A stretch of 5,233 nucleotides of DNA from Acidobacteria bacterium UBA7540. GTDB lineage: Bacteria; Acidobacteriota; Terriglobia; UBA7540. Positions 1 to 5,233 of the stretch are shown here, piece after piece. Under the pieces are notes generated by a model. The model was not told the DNA's origin. It ran no database searches and saw only the letters and a list, made by a program, of their open reading frames with translations. How positions within the stretch are numbered: the stretch's first letter is position 1; each line of letters starts with the position of its first letter. Location: assembly GCA_002478145.1 (NCBI GenBank), contig DLMI01000110.1, positions 1 through 5,233 on the forward strand, given 5' to 3'. Made by a program: the position numbers and the translations under genes.

Positions 1-75
1 CTTAGAGCAATTCCCAGCGTCGACGTGCGGAGATTGCTGATTGAAAAACCTCTCGCTCTCGGTCCTGCCTGCTGA
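1..75 (+). other. Open reading frame tail at left edge, weak SelA-like motif
   Basis: Frame 1 is open from the first base and stops at TGA 73-75, giving 24 residues that begin LRAIPSVDVRRLLIEKPLA. The string LRAIPSVD followed by RLL resembles the N-terminal motif of SelA (L-seryl-tRNA(Sec) selenium transferase), but in that family the motif lies near the start of a protein of about 450 residues. Here only about 16 codons follow it. If the likeness is real, this is a truncated remnant; otherwise it is chance or the end of an unrelated gene. Nothing upstream is visible, so the start cannot be judged. Confidence 0.15.
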
Positions 76-173
76 GGCTACCTATAAATCTAAGCCTGTG
101 GATTTCTGCTTGTAATACTTGCGTCTCGTCGCTTCAAGCGCAGGGGCGAGGCGCGCGATTTTCATTAATTTTC

Positions 174-200
174 GGGGGTACCCCCCCTCCTCCCTCCCCT
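174..200. repeat. GGGGGTACCCCC palindrome plus pyrimidine tract
   Basis: Bases 174-185 are a perfect 12-bp palindrome, GGGGGTACCCCC. The C run continues to 187 and is followed by a pure C/T tract (tcctccctcccct) to 200. The site sits 41 bases before the 30-bp repeats at 241-300, and the two together look like one composite intergenic element. From memory, C-rich palindromes followed by CAAAATCT-type repeats recur between genes in acidobacterial genomes, but I cannot confirm this here. Confidence 0.55.
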
Positions 201-240
201 GGAAAGTCTTGCCGGGCGCGGGGTTCACAAGAAGTGCTTG

Positions 241-300
241 CAAAATCTAGATGGCAAAGAGCTTAGAGGTCAAAATCTAGAGAATAAGGGACTTATGTCG
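241..300. repeat. Two tandem 30-bp repeat units (CAAAATCTAGA...CTTA)
   Basis: CAAAATCTAGA occurs at 241-251 and again, identically, at 271-281, an exact 30-bp spacing. Aligning 241-270 with 271-300 gives 18 identities in 30, including the first 11 bases and CTTA at unit positions 22-25. The 30-bp period is close to three helical turns, so both cores would lie on the same DNA face. This could be a paired protein-binding site or two units of a dispersed intergenic repeat. There are too few copies and no cas genes, so it is not a CRISPR array. Confidence 0.6.
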
Positions 301-324
301 ACTTGACCCGCGAGGCTACACTGG

Positions 325-339
325 CATCGCTTAGCGATG
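325..339. repeat. Perfect 6-bp inverted repeat
   Basis: CATCGC (325-330) and GCGATG (334-339) are perfect inverted arms around TTA. A run of five T's (349-353) follows, but nine bases separate it from the stem, too far for a standard rho-independent terminator. Its role is unknown; it may be the end of the repeat element to its left. Confidence 0.35.
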
Positions 340-529
340 ATGGACTGATTTTTATTGCATCACAAGGTTAGATGTCACACGTGGTTGTGGATCCTGTGAG
401 GAGGGGACCCCCTTGCACGAACACAAACCAGTGGCGCCTCCGAACCTGCTCCAGCACCTGTAGAAAAACATCGCGATTCTGCGGCCGTCCGAGTAGAGCG
501 CGACGCTGGTAACAGCTTGTGGTGATGAA

Positions 530-613
530 GTGAAGATATCCGGCGCCGTAGTAGCGGTTGCAGCCGTGTGGGCACAGGGGTTTGTAACATTCATGTCCGC
601 TGCTTCGCTCTGA
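530..613 (+). CDS. Possible 27-codon hydrophobic microprotein (weak)
   Basis: A GTG-started frame of 27 codons runs from 530 to TGA 611-613. It reads MKISGAVVAVAAVWAQGF (start GTG taken as Met) and then a further hydrophobic segment ending SAASL. One Lys followed by a long apolar stretch resembles a signal peptide or a tiny membrane protein. GGTGAT (521-526), three bases before the GTG, matches part of the consensus complement of the 16S 3' end (AAGGAGGTGATC) in suitable register. There is no homology evidence, and a frame this short can arise by chance. It could equally be a decayed signal peptide from a lost gene. Confidence 0.15.
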   Translation: MKISGAVVAVAAVWAQGFVTFMSAASL

Positions 614-809
614 CGAGTGAACATGGACTCGAAGTACGCGGTGCCCACCCGTCGAAGACCGCGACAGGTGGGGGCAGCCTCAGTCGTGACAATCCATGGA
701 ACCATCGGGAAGCAAGGGTGGGCCAGCCCCCCGTTTTGTCGGCCCCGGGAAAGAAATAAGCCTGCTTGTTCTGCCCCGCAGTTCCTAGCAACGAAATAGA
801 CCGCCCGCC

Positions 810-875
810 ATGAAACGTTTTTGTTCTCACATCACCATTACTCGTCAGGCTTCACACACTATCGAGGAGTGTTAA
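810..875 (+). CDS. Possible 21-codon leader ORF before the peptidase gene
   Basis: ATG at 810 opens a 21-codon frame beginning MKRFCSHITITRQ and ending TIEEC, with TAA at 873-875. Only one base separates this stop from the peptidase ATG at 877, and the frame reads across the peptidase ribosome binding site (864-869). That arrangement would allow translational coupling. Against it, no Shine-Dalgarno sequence is visible before 810 and the peptide resembles nothing I know. Chance is a serious alternative. Confidence 0.2.
   Translation: MKRFCSHITITRQASHTIEEC
864..869 (+). promoter_or_regulatory. Ribosome binding site of the peptidase gene
   Basis: GAGGAG lies seven bases before ATG 877, near-ideal spacing. 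It fixes the start of the secreted peptidase and agrees with a complete signal peptide beginning at that ATG. Confidence 0.8.
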
Positions 876-876
876 C

Positions 877-2037
877 ATGAAGTGTAGAACGATTGCAGTA
901 GCGTTTGTCGCAGTAGCAGTTCTTTCGATGTGCAGTTTCCCGGGTGTTGCCGCGGCCCAGAGCAACTCCGACCCGGTCCGCGCAATGTACCAAAAATCCG
1001 CTACCGTCCCAACCAACATACCGGGAATATTCAGGTTCCCGGATGCGCCAGCCGGTTTCGATCCCGTAGCCGCGTCGGACCTAGAGCTAGCCGCTTATGG
1101 GTTCCCGCCCCATCCGGATGCGGAGGCCGATCCGAGCGGTTATGCAAGATGGGCTCACGCCATGAAAATGGCCAGGAATCGCTGGCATGGTGATCTGAAA
1201 CCAACGGGCATTTACCACGGCTCGGGGAGAGATGCCAAGGTGCTGGCATCCCAAACCACGAATAAACCGGGGTCCGCCAGTTACTCCAACTGGAGCGGCG
1301 TCATACTCACCAACACGCTAACCAAATACAGCACGAAAACCTCTTTTTACTATGTGATGTCGTACTGGAATGTGCCGTTCGCTCAGCAGGCATTCGACGG
1401 TGATGGAGGCAACGTCTGCGACGGTTTGACCGACTACGTCTCGGTGTGGAACGGTATCGATGGTTCGGGGATTGCAAAGGCCGGCAACGGCGACGTGCTG
1501 CAAGCTGGTACCGACTCAGCCGTGCGATGTGTCGACGGTACCACTACTTATTACACACCGATAGCATGGATCGAATGGTTCCCGGCTGGCGCCATCGGTG
1601 AATTTGACGTGGCGAACGGTGATGACATGTTCGTCGAGACGGTTGAGACGAGTTCCACGACCGGCTTCCTTATTGTCGAAGACCTAACCACGCAGATCTA
1701 TGACCTTATTGGCATTTCTGCCCCTTCGGGAACGGAACTGGTAGGGAGCAGCGCCGAGTGGATCGTGGAGCAGCCGTGCTGCGAGAAGGGCGGCTACAAC
1801 GGCTACTATGACCTGGCGAACTACGTCATGGACTTTACGTTTGGCGGCGAGGCTTACAACAACAACGATCAGGTTTTTTACGCGGGCAGCCAGGCAACCA
1901 GCACATATTTAGGAACGCTGTACGATGGCAGCACGGCCATCTCGTATCCTGTAGCCGGCACGGCAGGAACCGAAGGTAACCAAGGCATCACTTTCTTCGA
2001 TGAGGGTTGCGCGGCGAATGGCGGATGCAGCAACTAG
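877..2037 (+). CDS. Secreted glutamic peptidase, G1 (eqolisin) family, pro-enzyme
   Basis: An acid endopeptidase of the G1/A4 family that should cleave proteins outside the cytoplasm using a Gln/Glu pair. Residues 1-27 are a signal peptide: Lys/Arg start, hydrophobic core, VAAA before Gln28. Residues 28 to about 130 form a pro-region with the FPDAPAGFDP and AAYGFPPHPD strings that I associate with bacterial members. The catalytic domain covers about 136-335. SNWSGVILT (137-145) matches the mature N-terminus of fungal scytalidoglutamic peptidase, so activation probably cuts just before it. VWNGIDG (190-196), VLQAG with catalytic Gln209, WIEWFP (231-236) and SSAEWIVE with catalytic Glu294 are all present. 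The predicted mature part has six cysteines (181, 218, 301, 302, 378, 384), suggesting disulfides. The tail 336-386 is not recognised. GAGGAG at seven bases supports the start, and a terminator follows 33 bases after the stop, so the gene is probably monocistronic. The family call is firm; the substrate is unknown. Confidence 0.9.
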   Translation: MKCRTIAVAFVAVAVLSMCSFPGVAAAQSNSDPVRAMYQKSATVPTNIPGIFRFPDAPAGFDPVAASDLELAAYGFPPHPDAEADPSGYARWAHAMKMARNRWHGDLKPTGIYHGSGRDAKVLASQTTNKPGSASYSNWSGVILTNTLTKYSTKTSFYYVMSYWNVPFAQQAFDGDGGNVCDGLTDYVSVWNGIDGSGIAKAGNGDVLQAGTDSAVRCVDGTTTYYTPIAWIEWFPAGAIGEFDVANGDDMFVETVETSSTTGFLIVEDLTTQIYDLIGISAPSGTELVGSSAEWIVEQPCCEKGGYNGYYDLANYVMDFTFGGEAYNNNDQVFYAGSQATSTYLGTLYDGSTAISYPVAGTAGTEGNQGITFFDEGCAANGGCSN

Positions 2038-2070
2038 CTCTAGAGAATTTAAGAGTCACCTGATCGAACA

Positions 2071-2115
2071 AGGGGCATCTTGCGGCGGTTGTAATGCAAG
2101 GCGCCCCTGTTTTTT
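2071..2115 (+). terminator. Rho-independent terminator of the peptidase gene
   Basis: AGGGGCATCTTGC (2071-2083) pairs with GCAAGGCGCCCCT (2096-2108) around a 12-base loop: 13 positions with one A/C mismatch and one T-G wobble. One base later come six T's (2110-2115). It begins 33 bases after the peptidase stop. The minus strand has no T run after the stem, so it should not stop transcription arriving from the converging kinase-like gene. Confidence 0.88.
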
Positions 2116-2287
2116 GTTCAGCTGGGAACCTCGCCTCGTCCATCGCCTCATTCACAAGGCTGCCTGTGCAAACGCGGCCATTATTGCTTCTTCTCCAAGG
2201 GGTGTGCAAGCGTAGCGGTTGGAGTAGCCAGGTGCGAATAGACGGAATGATGACTTCTGAAAGATTCAGACTTTAGACAAGGGCCAA

Positions 2288-4771
2288 CTATTCGTGCTGA
2301 AGAACTTCGTCGATGACGGCTTTGCCGCCTTTGTCCACGGTGATGACCTTGTGAATGGGCGCATAGCCGGTGAGCGTGATGTCGACGACATAGTTGCCGG
2401 GGTCGAGCACGAAATCAACGGGCGAGCCTTTATCCAGCATGTGCTGGTTGACAGCCACTTGGGCTCCCTTGGGCTGGGTCTTGACGCTGACCGTACCCAT
2501 GCCCTGCGCTTCCTTGCCACCAAATAGTTTTTTCATTTTGCCCACGGTCTTGATGTCATCGACGTTGCCCAGCGAGCGCAGAGTGGGCGAGAAGCTGACG
2601 GTCTGGGCGAGGACGAACTGCGCGCTGGTGGTCTCGTCGATGAATCCAGCTTTGCGCACGAGCACGACGTGCTGACCTTTATCCACGGAGACTTGCGCGG
2701 GAGTGAGCTTGCCGGTATCTCTGCCATCGACATAGACATTGGCGCCGACGGGCGTGCTGGTAACCGAAAGCGTGGCCATAAGCTGCACGAGATGGGTCAC
2801 GACAAATGACTTGCTGCCAGAAGCAACGTCGACGGTACGAGTGTCGGTAGAGTACCCTGGCTTGCTGACGGTAACGCTGTGCTGGCCGGGGTTGAGTCCC
2901 GACAGAGTGAACGGTGTAACCCATGAGGGATCTGTTTTCCCGTCGAGCTGGACTTGCGCTCCCTGTGGAGTGGAGTCAATGGCCATTTGTCCGGGGACGA
3001 CGACGGGAGCGATCGGCGCAGCTGATTTCTTCTTTGAGTTCCTGCCTCTCGTCGCAGCGGCAGCCACGTGAGTGGGCGCTGGCTGAGATTCCTCCACGGA
3101 CTCCGCAGGTTGAGTTTGGGCGGGCACGCTGCTGGGCTGAGGTACTTGCACCTGCGCCGGCTGAGATGGTGCTGCGGGCTGACTTGCTGCCGCTTGGTTA
3201 GCCGGCTCGGCGGCTGGACGAGGGAAGTCGTCGTCACTATTCAAATGGTTGATGTGCAGGACCAGAGCGATCGCGATGATAAGGATCAAGACGGCCGCAC
3301 CGGCGATGGAATAAACCATCAGGCTGGGTGGAACGTTCTTGATTTCCTTGATTGCCTTTTCGGCGACTTCGCGTGGCTGAACCTTCGGCTTCTCCGGTTC
3401 CGAACCCGCGTGAAAATTTGGCGTGAGAGAAGGTTCCTGCTGGAGCGCGGGAGGTGGCGGAGGCGGCGCGATGTAGACCTCCTTCAGCGGAGGAAGTTCG
3501 GTCATCTCCGAGAAACTGACGCCGTTGCCGCGCGATGGGGCGTCGCCAGCCATCAGGGGATCCACAGCGATTCTGGGCGGCTCGGGGCTGGGAGCTTCGA
3601 CTGCGGGCTCATCGAGCACGGCCGACGACATGGAAGCCGATGGTGGCAGGGCATCGTTGATCGCTTCGGCACGCGGAGCAATGTGCGGATTGGGCGCATC
3701 AAGGTGAGGTGAGGAGGACGAAACTTCGGCTCCTGCCCAGCCTACTGCGGCGGCGGCAGCCTTACGCGCGGGTTCCGGTTTAGCAACTGCCGGGGGTGGC
3801 GATGCCGGGCGTGACGCCACTGGCGGCTGAGGGACAGCGGGTTTCTTTTCTACCGGTCTCGGGGGCGTGGACGCGAACTTGGTTTGAGCTGCAGCTTTCA
3901 CCGGAGCTGCAACCGCTGGAGCCTTGGCTGGCGCTGCCGGAGCTTTCGCAGCCTGCGGTTTCGATTCCTTGCATTTCTCCAGATCGTCGAGCAGTTCCCT
4001 CCCGGTCTGGTAGCGTTGGCCCGGATCCTTGGCCAGGGCCTTCATGATGAGATCGCTGAGTAGCGGGTGAAGTTTGGAGTTCACATGCATCGGGGGCACG
4101 GGCATGCTCTCGAGAATGCTCAGGCGCAGGGATTCGGAATCCTCACGATCGAAAGCCTTGCGGTCGGTCACCATTTCGTAAAATAGCGTGCCCAGACTAA
4201 AAATATTCGAGCGCGCATCGATATTCTCGCCGCGAACCTGTTCCGGTGACATGTAGTGCAGAATGGATGGGACCTCTGGCATCTCCGCGGTGAACTTGCC
4301 CACGCTGGAGACGCCGAATCCCAGAATTCTGACAGTGCCGTCCCAGCCGCACATGATTTTGGCGGGCTCAAGACTATAGTGAAAAACGTTCTGGGAGTGA
4401 GCGTAATCGAGGCCGCTGCACACTTGCCGTCCGATGTCGAGCAAGTCCCAGATGGAAAATCCTTCTTTGCGCGCCAACATGGTAGCAACGCTGTTGCCCT
4501 GGATGTACTCCATGGCGGCACAGAACTGGCCTTCCATTTCTCCGGCGCCGTAAACGGGTGCGAGGTTGGGATTGCTCAAGACCTTGGTGGTCTCGGCCTC
4601 TTCCAGAAGGCATTTTTCCAGATCGGCGGCGCGTTCACCAAAGGCCGACAACTGAATCGCTTTGAGAGCGACGGTTTGGCTGGTTTGCGGATCGTTGGCC
4701 TTGTAGACCGCGCCCGTGGCAGACTTTGACAGTTCACTCAGGATTTCGAAGTGGCCGATTTTCGTGGACAT
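2288..4771 (-). CDS. Membrane PEGA-repeat protein with Ser/Thr kinase-like (probable pseudokinase) domain
   Basis: 827 residues. A bacterial Hanks-type kinase fold spans about 8-265 and keeps the VALK lysine (K37), the helix-C Glu (E58), SPE of the APE motif (E177) and its partner R253. Catalytic residues are altered: the glycine loop reads SKSATG (15-20), HRDLKPxN reads HYSLEPAK (131-138), DFG reads GFG (151-153), and the DxxS aspartate is N189. Phosphotransfer is therefore unlikely, and a scaffold or nucleotide-sensing role fits better. A Pro/Ala-rich linker (271-480, six prolines at 436-441) leads to one transmembrane helix (about 484-506). A second Pro/Gln/Ala linker with a basic patch (RGRNSKKK, 575-582) leads to three PEGA domains (about 595-663, 666-733, 758-825), probably periplasmic, with a Lys-rich spacer (739-753) between the last two. 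TGA lies five codons upstream in frame, so ATG 4771 is the first start. GGAG sits only three bases away and TGAGG at ten. Stop is TAG. Confidence 0.9.
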   Translation of the reverse strand: MSTKIGHFEILSELSKSATGAVYKANDPQTSQTVALKAIQLSAFGERAADLEKCLLEEAETTKVLSNPNLAPVYGAGEMEGQFCAAMEYIQGNSVATMLARKEGFSIWDLLDIGRQVCSGLDYAHSQNVFHYSLEPAKIMCGWDGTVRILGFGVSSVGKFTAEMPEVPSILHYMSPEQVRGENIDARSNIFSLGTLFYEMVTDRKAFDREDSESLRLSILESMPVPPMHVNSKLHPLLSDLIMKALAKDPGQRYQTGRELLDDLEKCKESKPQAAKAPAAPAKAPAVAAPVKAAAQTKFASTPPRPVEKKPAVPQPPVASRPASPPPAVAKPEPARKAAAAAVGWAGAEVSSSSPHLDAPNPHIAPRAEAINDALPPSASMSSAVLDEPAVEAPSPEPPRIAVDPLMAGDAPSRGNGVSFSEMTELPPLKEVYIAPPPPPPALQQEPSLTPNFHAGSEPEKPKVQPREVAEKAIKEIKNVPPSLMVYSIAGAAVLILIIAIALVLHINHLNSDDDFPRPAAEPANQAAASQPAAPSQPAQVQVPQPSSVPAQTQPAESVEESQPAPTHVAAAATRGRNSKKKSAAPIAPVVVPGQMAIDSTPQGAQVQLDGKTDPSWVTPFTLSGLNPGQHSVTVSKPGYSTDTRTVDVASGSKSFVVTHLVQLMATLSVTSTPVGANVYVDGRDTGKLTPAQVSVDKGQHVVLVRKAGFIDETTSAQFVLAQTVSFSPTLRSLGNVDDIKTVGKMKKLFGGKEAQGMGTVSVKTQPKGAQVAVNQHMLDKGSPVDFVLDPGNYVVDITLTGYAPIHKVITVDKGGKAVIDEVLQHE

Positions 4772-4774
4772 TTG

Positions 4775-4786
4775 CTCCGTGCCTCA
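4775..4786 (-). promoter_or_regulatory. Weak or offset ribosome binding site of the kinase-like gene
   Basis: On the minus strand the bases before ATG 4771 read TGAGGCACGGAGCAA. GGAG (4775-4778) is only three bases from the ATG, closer than usual; TGAGG (4782-4786) is ten bases away. Either may serve. There is no upstream in-frame alternative because a TGA interrupts the frame five codons before the start. Confidence 0.5.
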
Positions 4787-4792
4787 TCACAG

Positions 4793-4831
4793 AAAAAAAG
4801 CCGCGCAGTTTCCTGTTGAGAAGCTGCGTGG
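4793..4831 (-). terminator. Terminator-like hairpin in the leader of the kinase-like gene
   Basis: Read on the minus strand, CCACGCAGCTTC (4831-4820) pairs with GAAACTGCGCGG (4812-4801), a 12-position stem with two mismatches around a 7-base loop. It is followed by C and seven T's (4799-4793), the classic form of a rho-independent terminator pointing toward the kinase-like gene. Only 21 bases separate the T run from ATG 4771. It either ends a short upstream minus-strand transcript or acts as an attenuator in the kinase leader. A competing GGGTT/AACCC hairpin (4830-4842) shares the base of the stem. Confidence 0.7.
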
Positions 4832-5046
4832 GTTAAAAACCCGGGGCAGGGTATGGTTAGGATAGCGCTGTCGAGAGGAGGGTTCGAGTTACCAAAGTAC
4901 TGAAAATAAAGAGTGTGAAAACGATAGGCCGACTGTATTTGGTCATTCAGTCCGAGGAGCGTCGTTGGTATGGCAAGAATAATGCCCTGGCTCGCGCCGT
5001 GACCTTTTGCCAGGCGAAACGTTTAACTCTGTAAGAAGAAATGAAG

Positions 5047-5060
5047 GTGACATTTGTCAC
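5047..5060. promoter_or_regulatory. CRP/FNR-type operator-like palindrome
   Basis: GTGACATTTGTCAC is a perfect 14-bp palindrome with 6-base arms. It contains GTGA-N6-TCAC, the core of the CRP/FNR-family consensus TGTGA-N6-TCACA; the outer bases are G and G instead of T and A. It lies 276 bases before the kinase-like ATG and about 100 bases before the possible rightward gene start at 5164. Regulator and target are inferred only from the pattern. Confidence 0.4.
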
Positions 5061-5163
5061 GTGGGCCGGATGACGATCTCCACTGGCGGGCAGGAACGGG
5101 CGGGTCGAGCATAGGGTTGTGCCGGAACGCAGTCGCATGAGGGTTGCCGCTCGGAGGCTAGTT

Positions 5164-5233
5164 GTGGGGAGCGCGGTCCTTCGTTTATCCTTGAGGCCGG
5201 CATGGACTAAGCTTTTCCGCAGTCCAGCACACC
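5164..5233 (+). CDS. Possible 5' end of a gene cut by the right edge (weak)
   Basis: GGAGG (5153-5157) lies six bases before GTG 5164, and the frame stays open to the window end, about 23 codons beginning MGSAVLRLSLRPAWTKLF (GTG as Met). An in-frame ATG at 5137 is an alternative start with a poorer ribosome binding site. The residues match no family I recognise, and an open frame of this length is expected by chance in G+C-rich DNA. The inverted repeat at 5203-5226 lies inside it. Confidence 0.18.
   Translation, partial: MGSAVLRLSLRPAWTKLFRSPAH
5203..5226. repeat. Inverted repeat at right edge
   Basis: TGGACT (5203-5208) and AGTCCA (5221-5226) are perfect 6-base arms. An inner GC/GC pair can extend the stem past a two-base bulge, leaving a TTTTCC loop. 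No T run follows inside the window. Its function is unknown. Confidence 0.35.

Follow-up and report, generated by a model that had tools for sequence, protein, structure and literature searches.

A putative receptor pseudokinase of the acidobacterial cell envelope with a replaced active site and a clade-specific candidate docking surface

What purpose does a protein kinase fold serve in a bacterium once the residues that carry out phosphoryl transfer have been replaced? The question is posed by a gene on contig DLMI01000110.1 of Acidobacteria bacterium UBA7540, of which positions 1 to 5,233, the whole stretch of DNA that was analysed, are referred to here as the window. The gene (2288..4771) lies on the minus strand, as do all features of its product given below, and its uninterrupted frame of 827 amino acids runs from an ATG at 4771 to a stop codon ending at 2288, encoding a kinase fold, a linker rich in proline and alanine, a transmembrane helix and a PEGA region. 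A first-pass annotation of the window had described the kinase domain as a pseudokinase maintained by selection on a non-catalytic role. Our preferred reading, held at a probability of roughly 0.6 on comparisons of sequences, is that the protein is a pseudokinase receptor in the cell envelope, which has lost catalysis and acts as a docking platform; that its role is non-catalytic in one form or another is very probable.

The kinase domain occupies residues 8-265 (3977..4750). Its Pfam Pkinase match spans residues 12-255 at 116.9 bits against a cut-off of 31.7, and with both a score above the cut-off and a bilobal fold the domain belongs to PF00069; the closest solved fold is that of PknB. The equivalog model for the PknB/Stk1 PASTA kinases (NF033483) returned 183.9 bits against its cut-off of 450, and a PASTA match was not found: in place of PASTA the protein carries a predicted periplasmic PEGA region at residues 594-827 (2291..2992), in which PF08308 matches three stretches (129.7 bits) and PF13620 matches residues 621-655, and it departs from those kinases further in that the HRD Asp, the loop Lys and Asn and the DFG Asp are all replaced. 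Between the two parts lies a predicted transmembrane helix at approximately residues 486-507 (3251..3316; hydropathy maximum 2.95 over 19 residues), the single hydrophobic helix of the protein as judged by hydropathy only. The clear fold, intact frame and three PEGA stretches of the first-pass annotation are thereby borne out.

Every residue that it named was found in place (S15, S17, K37, E58, H131-Y132-S133, E135, K138, G151-F152-G153, E177, N189 and R253), with the codons for HYS at 4381-4373, for GFG at 4321-4313 and for N189 at 4207-4205. The glycine-rich loop is degenerate (SELSKSATGAV, residues 12-22, 4706..4738); the catalytic loop HRDxKPxNIM is replaced by HYSLEPAKIM (residues 131-140, 4352..4381), DFG by GFG (residues 151-153, 4313..4321) and the subdomain IX Asp by Asn189 (4205..4207). 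Retained as in active kinases are A35, the beta3 Lys37 (4661..4663), the alphaC Glu58 (4598..4600), F/Y152 and G153. Excerpts of a 2025 review define a pseudokinase by the absence of at least one of the beta3 Lys, the HRD Asp and the DFG Asp (PMC12599244); with S133 and G151 the window protein lacks the latter two and keeps the first.

Are these replacements the mark of one damaged gene or of a family? An identical protein is encoded on PLHQ01000022.1 of Acidobacteriaceae bacterium isolate bog_206 (locus L001), and a sequencing error or a decaying copy was ruled out by this second locus together with the conservation of the replacements. In an alignment of 121 rows, comprising the query and the best 120 of 4447 matches (71-100% identity; row P0003 is identical to the query, which is therefore counted twice), S17, K37, E58, H131 and N189 are each present in 121/121, E135 in 120, S133 in 119 (the remaining two having N and G) and K138 in 118, with residue 151 either G (99) or S (22) throughout. 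Close homologues with intact HRD or DFG were sought, and Asp occurs at 133 or 151 in none of these best 120. Of 86 relatives in a genome collection, 80 loci were kept (L001-L080), all with record titles that point to Acidobacteriota; counting the active paralogue L079 that this set includes, S133 is found in 76, E135 in 79 and K138 in 79, and Asp151 only in L036 and L079. The L036 member (2031-2888, plus strand) combines the HYSLEPAK loop with an intact-looking DFG, its Asp either retained or regained. The signature H-x-S-L-E-P-x-K with [GS]-[FY]-G thus marks a large clade within the Acidobacteriota.

A further 65 loci, made up of the 30 best of a search with the membrane/PEGA half and 35 hand-picked genome regions, do not amount to a census of states; they comprise 37 window-type orthologues, nine active kinases, 17 other pseudokinases, one repeat and one locus without a kinase domain. 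The window-type class, recovered by searching with the PEGA half or the full protein, is defined by E135 and K138 and includes the identical protein (L126); S133 is present in 35 of its members and G133 in two, with G or S at 151 in 37/37. L079 was left out of pseudokinase counts, L060 and L074 were not long enough to enter the motif count, L104 had no kinase domain over the coverage cut, L122 had none at all and L174 repeats L114. As active controls we used 120 listed PEGA kinases (P0123-P0242) and 30 domains from four genomes (30 loci, 29 of which yielded domains, one of them two); for single residues of the patch described below, 160 active domains were compared (9, 121 and 30). The residues K-D-K-N-D at 37/133/135/138/151 are found in 149/150 of the control domains (30/30 and 119/120, the remaining one having a gap at 37) and in L079, so that the replacement pattern lies well outside what chance would produce. 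At position 17 active relatives have Gly in 19/19 of those with a letter there, and at 189 Asp in 20/20 non-redundant sequences. The closest active kinase among those compared shares 41% identity over the domain.

Such near-fixation is matched by the pattern of substitution. Across 36 pairs from nine close relatives the ratio of non-synonymous to synonymous change (dN/dS) in the kinase domain is 0.041-0.162, a rough range given synonymous divergences (dS) of up to 1.31, and on these values the domain is evidently under purifying selection. Judged on its sequences, this is an old family and not a decaying copy; that it is a functionless, decaying kinase gene, as the many lost catalytic residues might suggest, is exceedingly improbable given dN/dS of 0.04-0.16, near-fixed replacements of one old origin, no internal stop in any match listed and full-length frames in relatives down to about 45% identity.

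The trees place the family and the order of its losses. In a tree of 150 domains (including 40 of the 120 listed active kinases) 79 pseudokinase rows split off along a branch whose Shimodaira-Hasegawa-like approximate likelihood ratio (SH-aLRT) is 100, the stem measuring 1.31 changes per column. The same division appears in a tree built from the C-terminal 340 residues, the membrane/PEGA half without the kinase domain (40 pseudokinase versus 26 active rows, support 100/99), and in a kinase tree from which the columns of the glycine loop, Lys/Glu pair, catalytic loop, DFG, subdomain IX and patch (see below) had been removed (41 versus 31 rows, one branch, 100/99). As generic active kinases fall on the active side of this trimmed tree, the pseudokinases form a clade, provided that those kinases are the outgroup; the check proposed in the first-pass annotation, whether the HYS/GFG pattern is conserved as a clade of its own, is answered in the affirmative. 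It is worth noting that long branches are flagged in the kinase trees (L161 with the L159 group) and that support for the deepest branching of the other pseudokinases is low (66/80).

Those 17 other pseudokinases all lack the HRD Asp (HPE, HPN, HRN, HGN, HHF/HNF, HKR and similar), and Arg37 is found in 14; Asp151 is kept in 16, the seventeenth, L119, having GFG. The trimmed tree requires one change of the HRD Asp, two of the DFG Asp, two of the loop Asn, three of the loop Lys and four each of the beta3 Lys and the alphaC Glu, and the two DFG changes are read as one putative loss plus the Asp of L036. Since 16 of 17 deeper relatives without the HRD Asp keep the DFG Asp, the base appears to have been lost first and once, the DFG metal ligand later, with the near-fixed ExxK loop following in the lineage of the window. 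The earlier claim of many independent losses under selection on a non-catalytic role is supported as to selection and corrected as to the losses, which seem to have come in steps. Two further groups of PEGA pseudokinases were seen along the way: L162-L166, L170 and L159 mostly carry H[HN]FLNP.N with LDFGLLR or similar and a beta3 Arg, and L158 and L168 carry HGNLVPWN with DFGLA and a beta3 Arg.

If catalysis has gone, the output of the protein may be sought elsewhere on its surface, and a candidate is a stretch between alphaD and alphaE (QGNSVATMLARKEGFSIWDLLD, residues 91-112, 4436..4501), which is the conservation peak of the clade. Its core, EGFSIWD, marks the clade and was not found in the active relatives compared. 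As L001-L080 were collected through the peptides MEYIQGN and KEGFSIWD, conservation of the patch within them is partly circular; in 33 non-redundant members of the 37 window-type orthologues, which were not collected in this way, block 101-110 still ranks first of 27 blocks at 0.94, as against only 0.57 in 20 non-redundant active kinases. F105 and W108 are present in 37/37 window-type sequences, F105 in 2/160 and W108 in 0/160 active domains, and W108 in one of the 17 other pseudokinases (L119). Trp143 (4343..4345), in 37/37 of the clade, 8/17 other pseudokinases and 0/160 active domains, lies between beta7 and beta8. An AlphaFold2 model of the full-length protein with 22 close homologues reached a predicted local distance difference test score of 35.8; the domain alone was modelled successfully with 101 rows (including 61 of the 80 locus domains and 39 of the 120 listed active kinases), and the model puts F105, W108 and W143 at the alphaD-alphaE linker, where alphaE begins and between the strands beta7 and beta8. 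According to excerpts of one source, these elements border the docking groove in mitogen-activated protein (MAP) kinases (PMC4370755).

The linker between kinase and membrane offers a second clade-specific element. Poorly conserved elsewhere, it contains the motif SFS[ED]xxE[LM]PP[LM] (here SFSEMTELPPL, residues 419-429, 3485..3517). The pattern was loosened twice: the strict form matches 50/81 proteins, the relaxed form 75/77 loci, and a third form admits the one-letter misses of L055 and L071. This widest pattern, applied equally to the active controls, is found in 120/120 and 37/37 members of the clade, in one of the 17 other pseudokinases (again L119) and in 0/120 and 0/9 active kinases; a narrower pattern matched 0/896 neighbouring open reading frames. 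That F105/W108 and the linker motif seem to have arisen together on one stem suggests a contact between them.

From these elements a mechanism may be proposed in which the PEGA region would read the envelope or periplasm while the domain in the cytoplasm would serve as a conformational docking platform that links the envelope to a cytoplasmic partner without phosphoryl transfer. The alphaD-alphaE/beta7-beta8 surface, where MAP kinases take docking peptides, would be engaged either by a partner or by the conserved peptide SFS[ED]xxE[LM]PP[LM] from the linker of the protein itself. That the docking surface is the output is an even bet on the conservation described; that groove and linker motif bind each other is, at present, rather doubtful.

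The pocket itself invites comparison with STRAD-alpha which, according to excerpts of two sources, binds adenosine triphosphate (ATP) without Mg2+ by means of basic residues, with Ser195, His200 and GLR in its active site (PMC2686265, PMC4718504). The two proteins share Ser for the HRD Asp, a basic residue for the loop Asn (His there, Lys here) and Gly for the DFG Asp. They differ in that STRAD-alpha, as those excerpts describe it, has Arg at the beta3 position and keeps the loop Lys, whilst the window protein keeps the beta3 Lys and has Glu135 in place of the loop Lys. K138 and G151 would be compatible with a STRAD-like, Mg-independent binder, and with Lys138 at the place of a metal ligand the pocket might, like that of STRAD-alpha, hold a nucleotide with no need of Mg2+, or might be locked by its own charges. 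By this analogy Mg-independent nucleotide binding is a tentative suggestion, with the odds somewhat against it. We know of no homologous partner for the window protein like that of STRAD-alpha. Taken together, a kinase emptied step by step into a membrane docking switch, with linker or partner peptide in a new groove and metal-free nucleotide gating a Ser/Lys/Gly pocket, is a conjunction that we regard as quite unlikely to hold in full. If true, it would be a bacterial case uniting a MAP-kinase-like docking groove with a STRAD-like pocket, each reached independently.

Several observations weigh against the preferred reading of a dead docking platform. Excerpts of one source credit CASK with activity although it lacks the DFG Asp, and state that IRAK2 is active without its HRD and DFG motifs (PMC2686265), so that missing motifs do not prove a kinase inactive; the retention of K37 could hint at surviving chemistry, and one member of the clade, L036, has Asp151. 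Glu135 occupies the place of the STRAD-alpha Lys that meets the gamma-phosphate, and ATP binding could thus be blocked; by analogy, Glu135 may speak for adenosine diphosphate, for a different ligand or for a pocket that locks itself no less than for ATP. Trp143 is older than the clade, being present in those 8/17 deeper relatives. The co-occurrence of patch and linker motif is a single event and so no proof of contact, and L119 combines the linker motif and F105/W108 with a different catalytic loop; it falls inside the HYS group in the PEGA tree (93/82) and as sister to that group in the kinase tree (97/85).

Other readings of the same features must be considered. In the first, an active kinase would phosphorylate the linker motif, whereupon an FHA-type protein would be recruited, as is described for the tail of the MviN pseudokinase in the excerpts available of PMC12599244. 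Near-invariant serines, Ser421 (75/75) and Ser419 (74/75), followed by an acidic residue, lend this phospho-scaffold some appeal. Thr424, however, is Thr in only 28/75 (elsewhere D, A, S, E or N) and cannot be a general site, and an FHA domain occurs in none of 12 annotated neighbour clusters; we consider the scheme unlikely.

A second reading, less probable again, would have the protein pair with an active transmembrane kinase through the back-to-back N-lobe face of PknB type and switch it on or off. HER3 is a pseudokinase that switches a partner kinase in such a manner. Retention of K37, E58, F/Y152 and G153 and the nearest solved fold, PknB, would suit an allosteric partner, and candidates for pairing abound: four genomes carrying relatives hold 47, 30, 34 and 46 PF00069 matches. 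The face in question tells another story, as the position of PknB Asp76, placed by alignment and by mutant entries, is Asp in 20/20 non-redundant active PEGA kinases but Gly in 29/33 pseudokinases, and the conservation maximum lies at alphaD-alphaE, not in the N-lobe. Moreover, in the draft genome with the identical copy (G001), among the kinase matches listed, no other shares a frame with an above-cut-off PEGA match.

A repurposed or residual enzyme, in which the ExxK loop and K37 would perform a metal-independent or non-phosphoryl reaction or an unusual kinase activity, is improbable. Near-fixed, non-random replacements are what one would expect of a new active site, K37 and E58 are kept, and precedent exists in CASK and IRAK2 as cited above and, in excerpts of PMC12599244, in SelO and SidJ. 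Yet both usual metal ligands and the catalytic base are gone, and the diverse states of the deeper relatives at these sites fit relaxed constraint before re-use.

With the alternatives so weighed, the candidate docking pseudokinase can be set among known systems. The active PEGA kinases of Acidobacteriota (P0123-P0242, L079, L116, L120) have the same domain order and form the sister side in the trees, and differ in their intact catalytic residues and in lacking both the linker motif (0/120) and W108 (0/121). The available excerpts of PMC12599244 describe seven families of bacterial pseudokinases, of 42, several of them membrane-tethered. By the features given there, ActPs3/MviN has fully degraded motifs, including the beta3 Lys, and bulky pocket residues, and ActPs1 and ActPs2 have a substituted beta3 Lys (nearly always Arg in ActPs2), whereas K37 is invariant here. 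The GLW family has GLW for HRD and a bulky residue for the beta3 Lys, against H131-x-S133 and K37; the DYD family has a beta3 Arg, no alphaC Glu and DYD, against K37, E58 and GFG. The CP1 family is a COG3899 fusion without a transmembrane segment, and the DLHK family keeps the HRD Asp and loop Asn and likewise has no transmembrane segment, whereas the window protein has S133, K138, a predicted transmembrane helix and PEGA. On these textual features, with sequence logos outside the comparison, the window protein fits none of the seven, and neither Acidobacteriota nor PEGA occurs as a term in the text of that review. Among the literature matches listed there was no paper on an acidobacterial PEGA pseudokinase; the primary classification into 42 families lay outside those matches and may name the family otherwise. 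The protein would accordingly represent a new family of a known kind, set apart by its stepwise history, STRAD-like site and clade-specific candidate docking surface.

The first-pass annotation had thought a membrane pseudokinase of this build unusual; the architecture stands, but the protein is not isolated and belongs to a sizeable family. Sought with a strict pattern at the DNA level, HxSLEPxK[IV]M was found in 6/299 genomes drawn from the class (reversed control 0/299), the whole protein is matched in 56/120 genomes of the family (E<=1e-60) and the membrane/PEGA half in 80/298 of the order (E<=1e-45), the latter two counts mixing orthologues with other PEGA kinases. Many source records name such proteins serine/threonine kinases, so that a family very probably unable to phosphorylate is misannotated. 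From active PEGA kinases, through relatives without the HRD Asp that keep DFG, to proteins with neither and a near-fixed new loop, the group offers a natural series of kinase death that would allow a test of which catalytic residue is the first to go and at what point a pseudokinase gains a new interface. The parallel with STRAD-alpha raises the question of whether metal-free nucleotide binding evolved twice.

The gene neighbourhood was considered as a clue to function and set aside, neither of its two recurrent genes being oriented to form an operon with the pseudokinase gene. Of the 48 loci that extend at least 6 kb upstream, 35 have a divergent MacAB-type exporter there (clusters 4 and 5). 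Of the 52 loci that extend 6 kb downstream, 32 have on the opposite strand a gene for a protein (cluster 2) that combines a receiver-like N-terminus with a hydrophobic helix and a TonB_C domain; in L001 this gene is at 12774-14603 (minus strand), and some loci have two tandem copies. In 13 loci (L042-L077) the pseudokinase gene is followed on its own strand, after 19-302 bases, by a gene for a small protein of a cyclic-nucleotide-binding-domain cluster (e.g. L053, 10552-11154, plus strand). Convergent with the pseudokinase gene in the window is a gene at 877-2037 (plus strand) for a peptidase family A4 protein (PF01828, 74.9 bits) with a signal-like N-terminus, which in L001 belongs to no cluster common to other loci. 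Lastly, some 20 bases before the start codon, at 4793-4831 on the minus strand, is a GC-rich hairpin (CCACGCAG/CTGCGCGG) with a run of T after it. It is absent from the output of a terminator scan that was limited to short loops; it recurs in several close relatives in which, by eye, the letters of the stem vary and the pairing seems kept, and it could be an attenuator-like leader.

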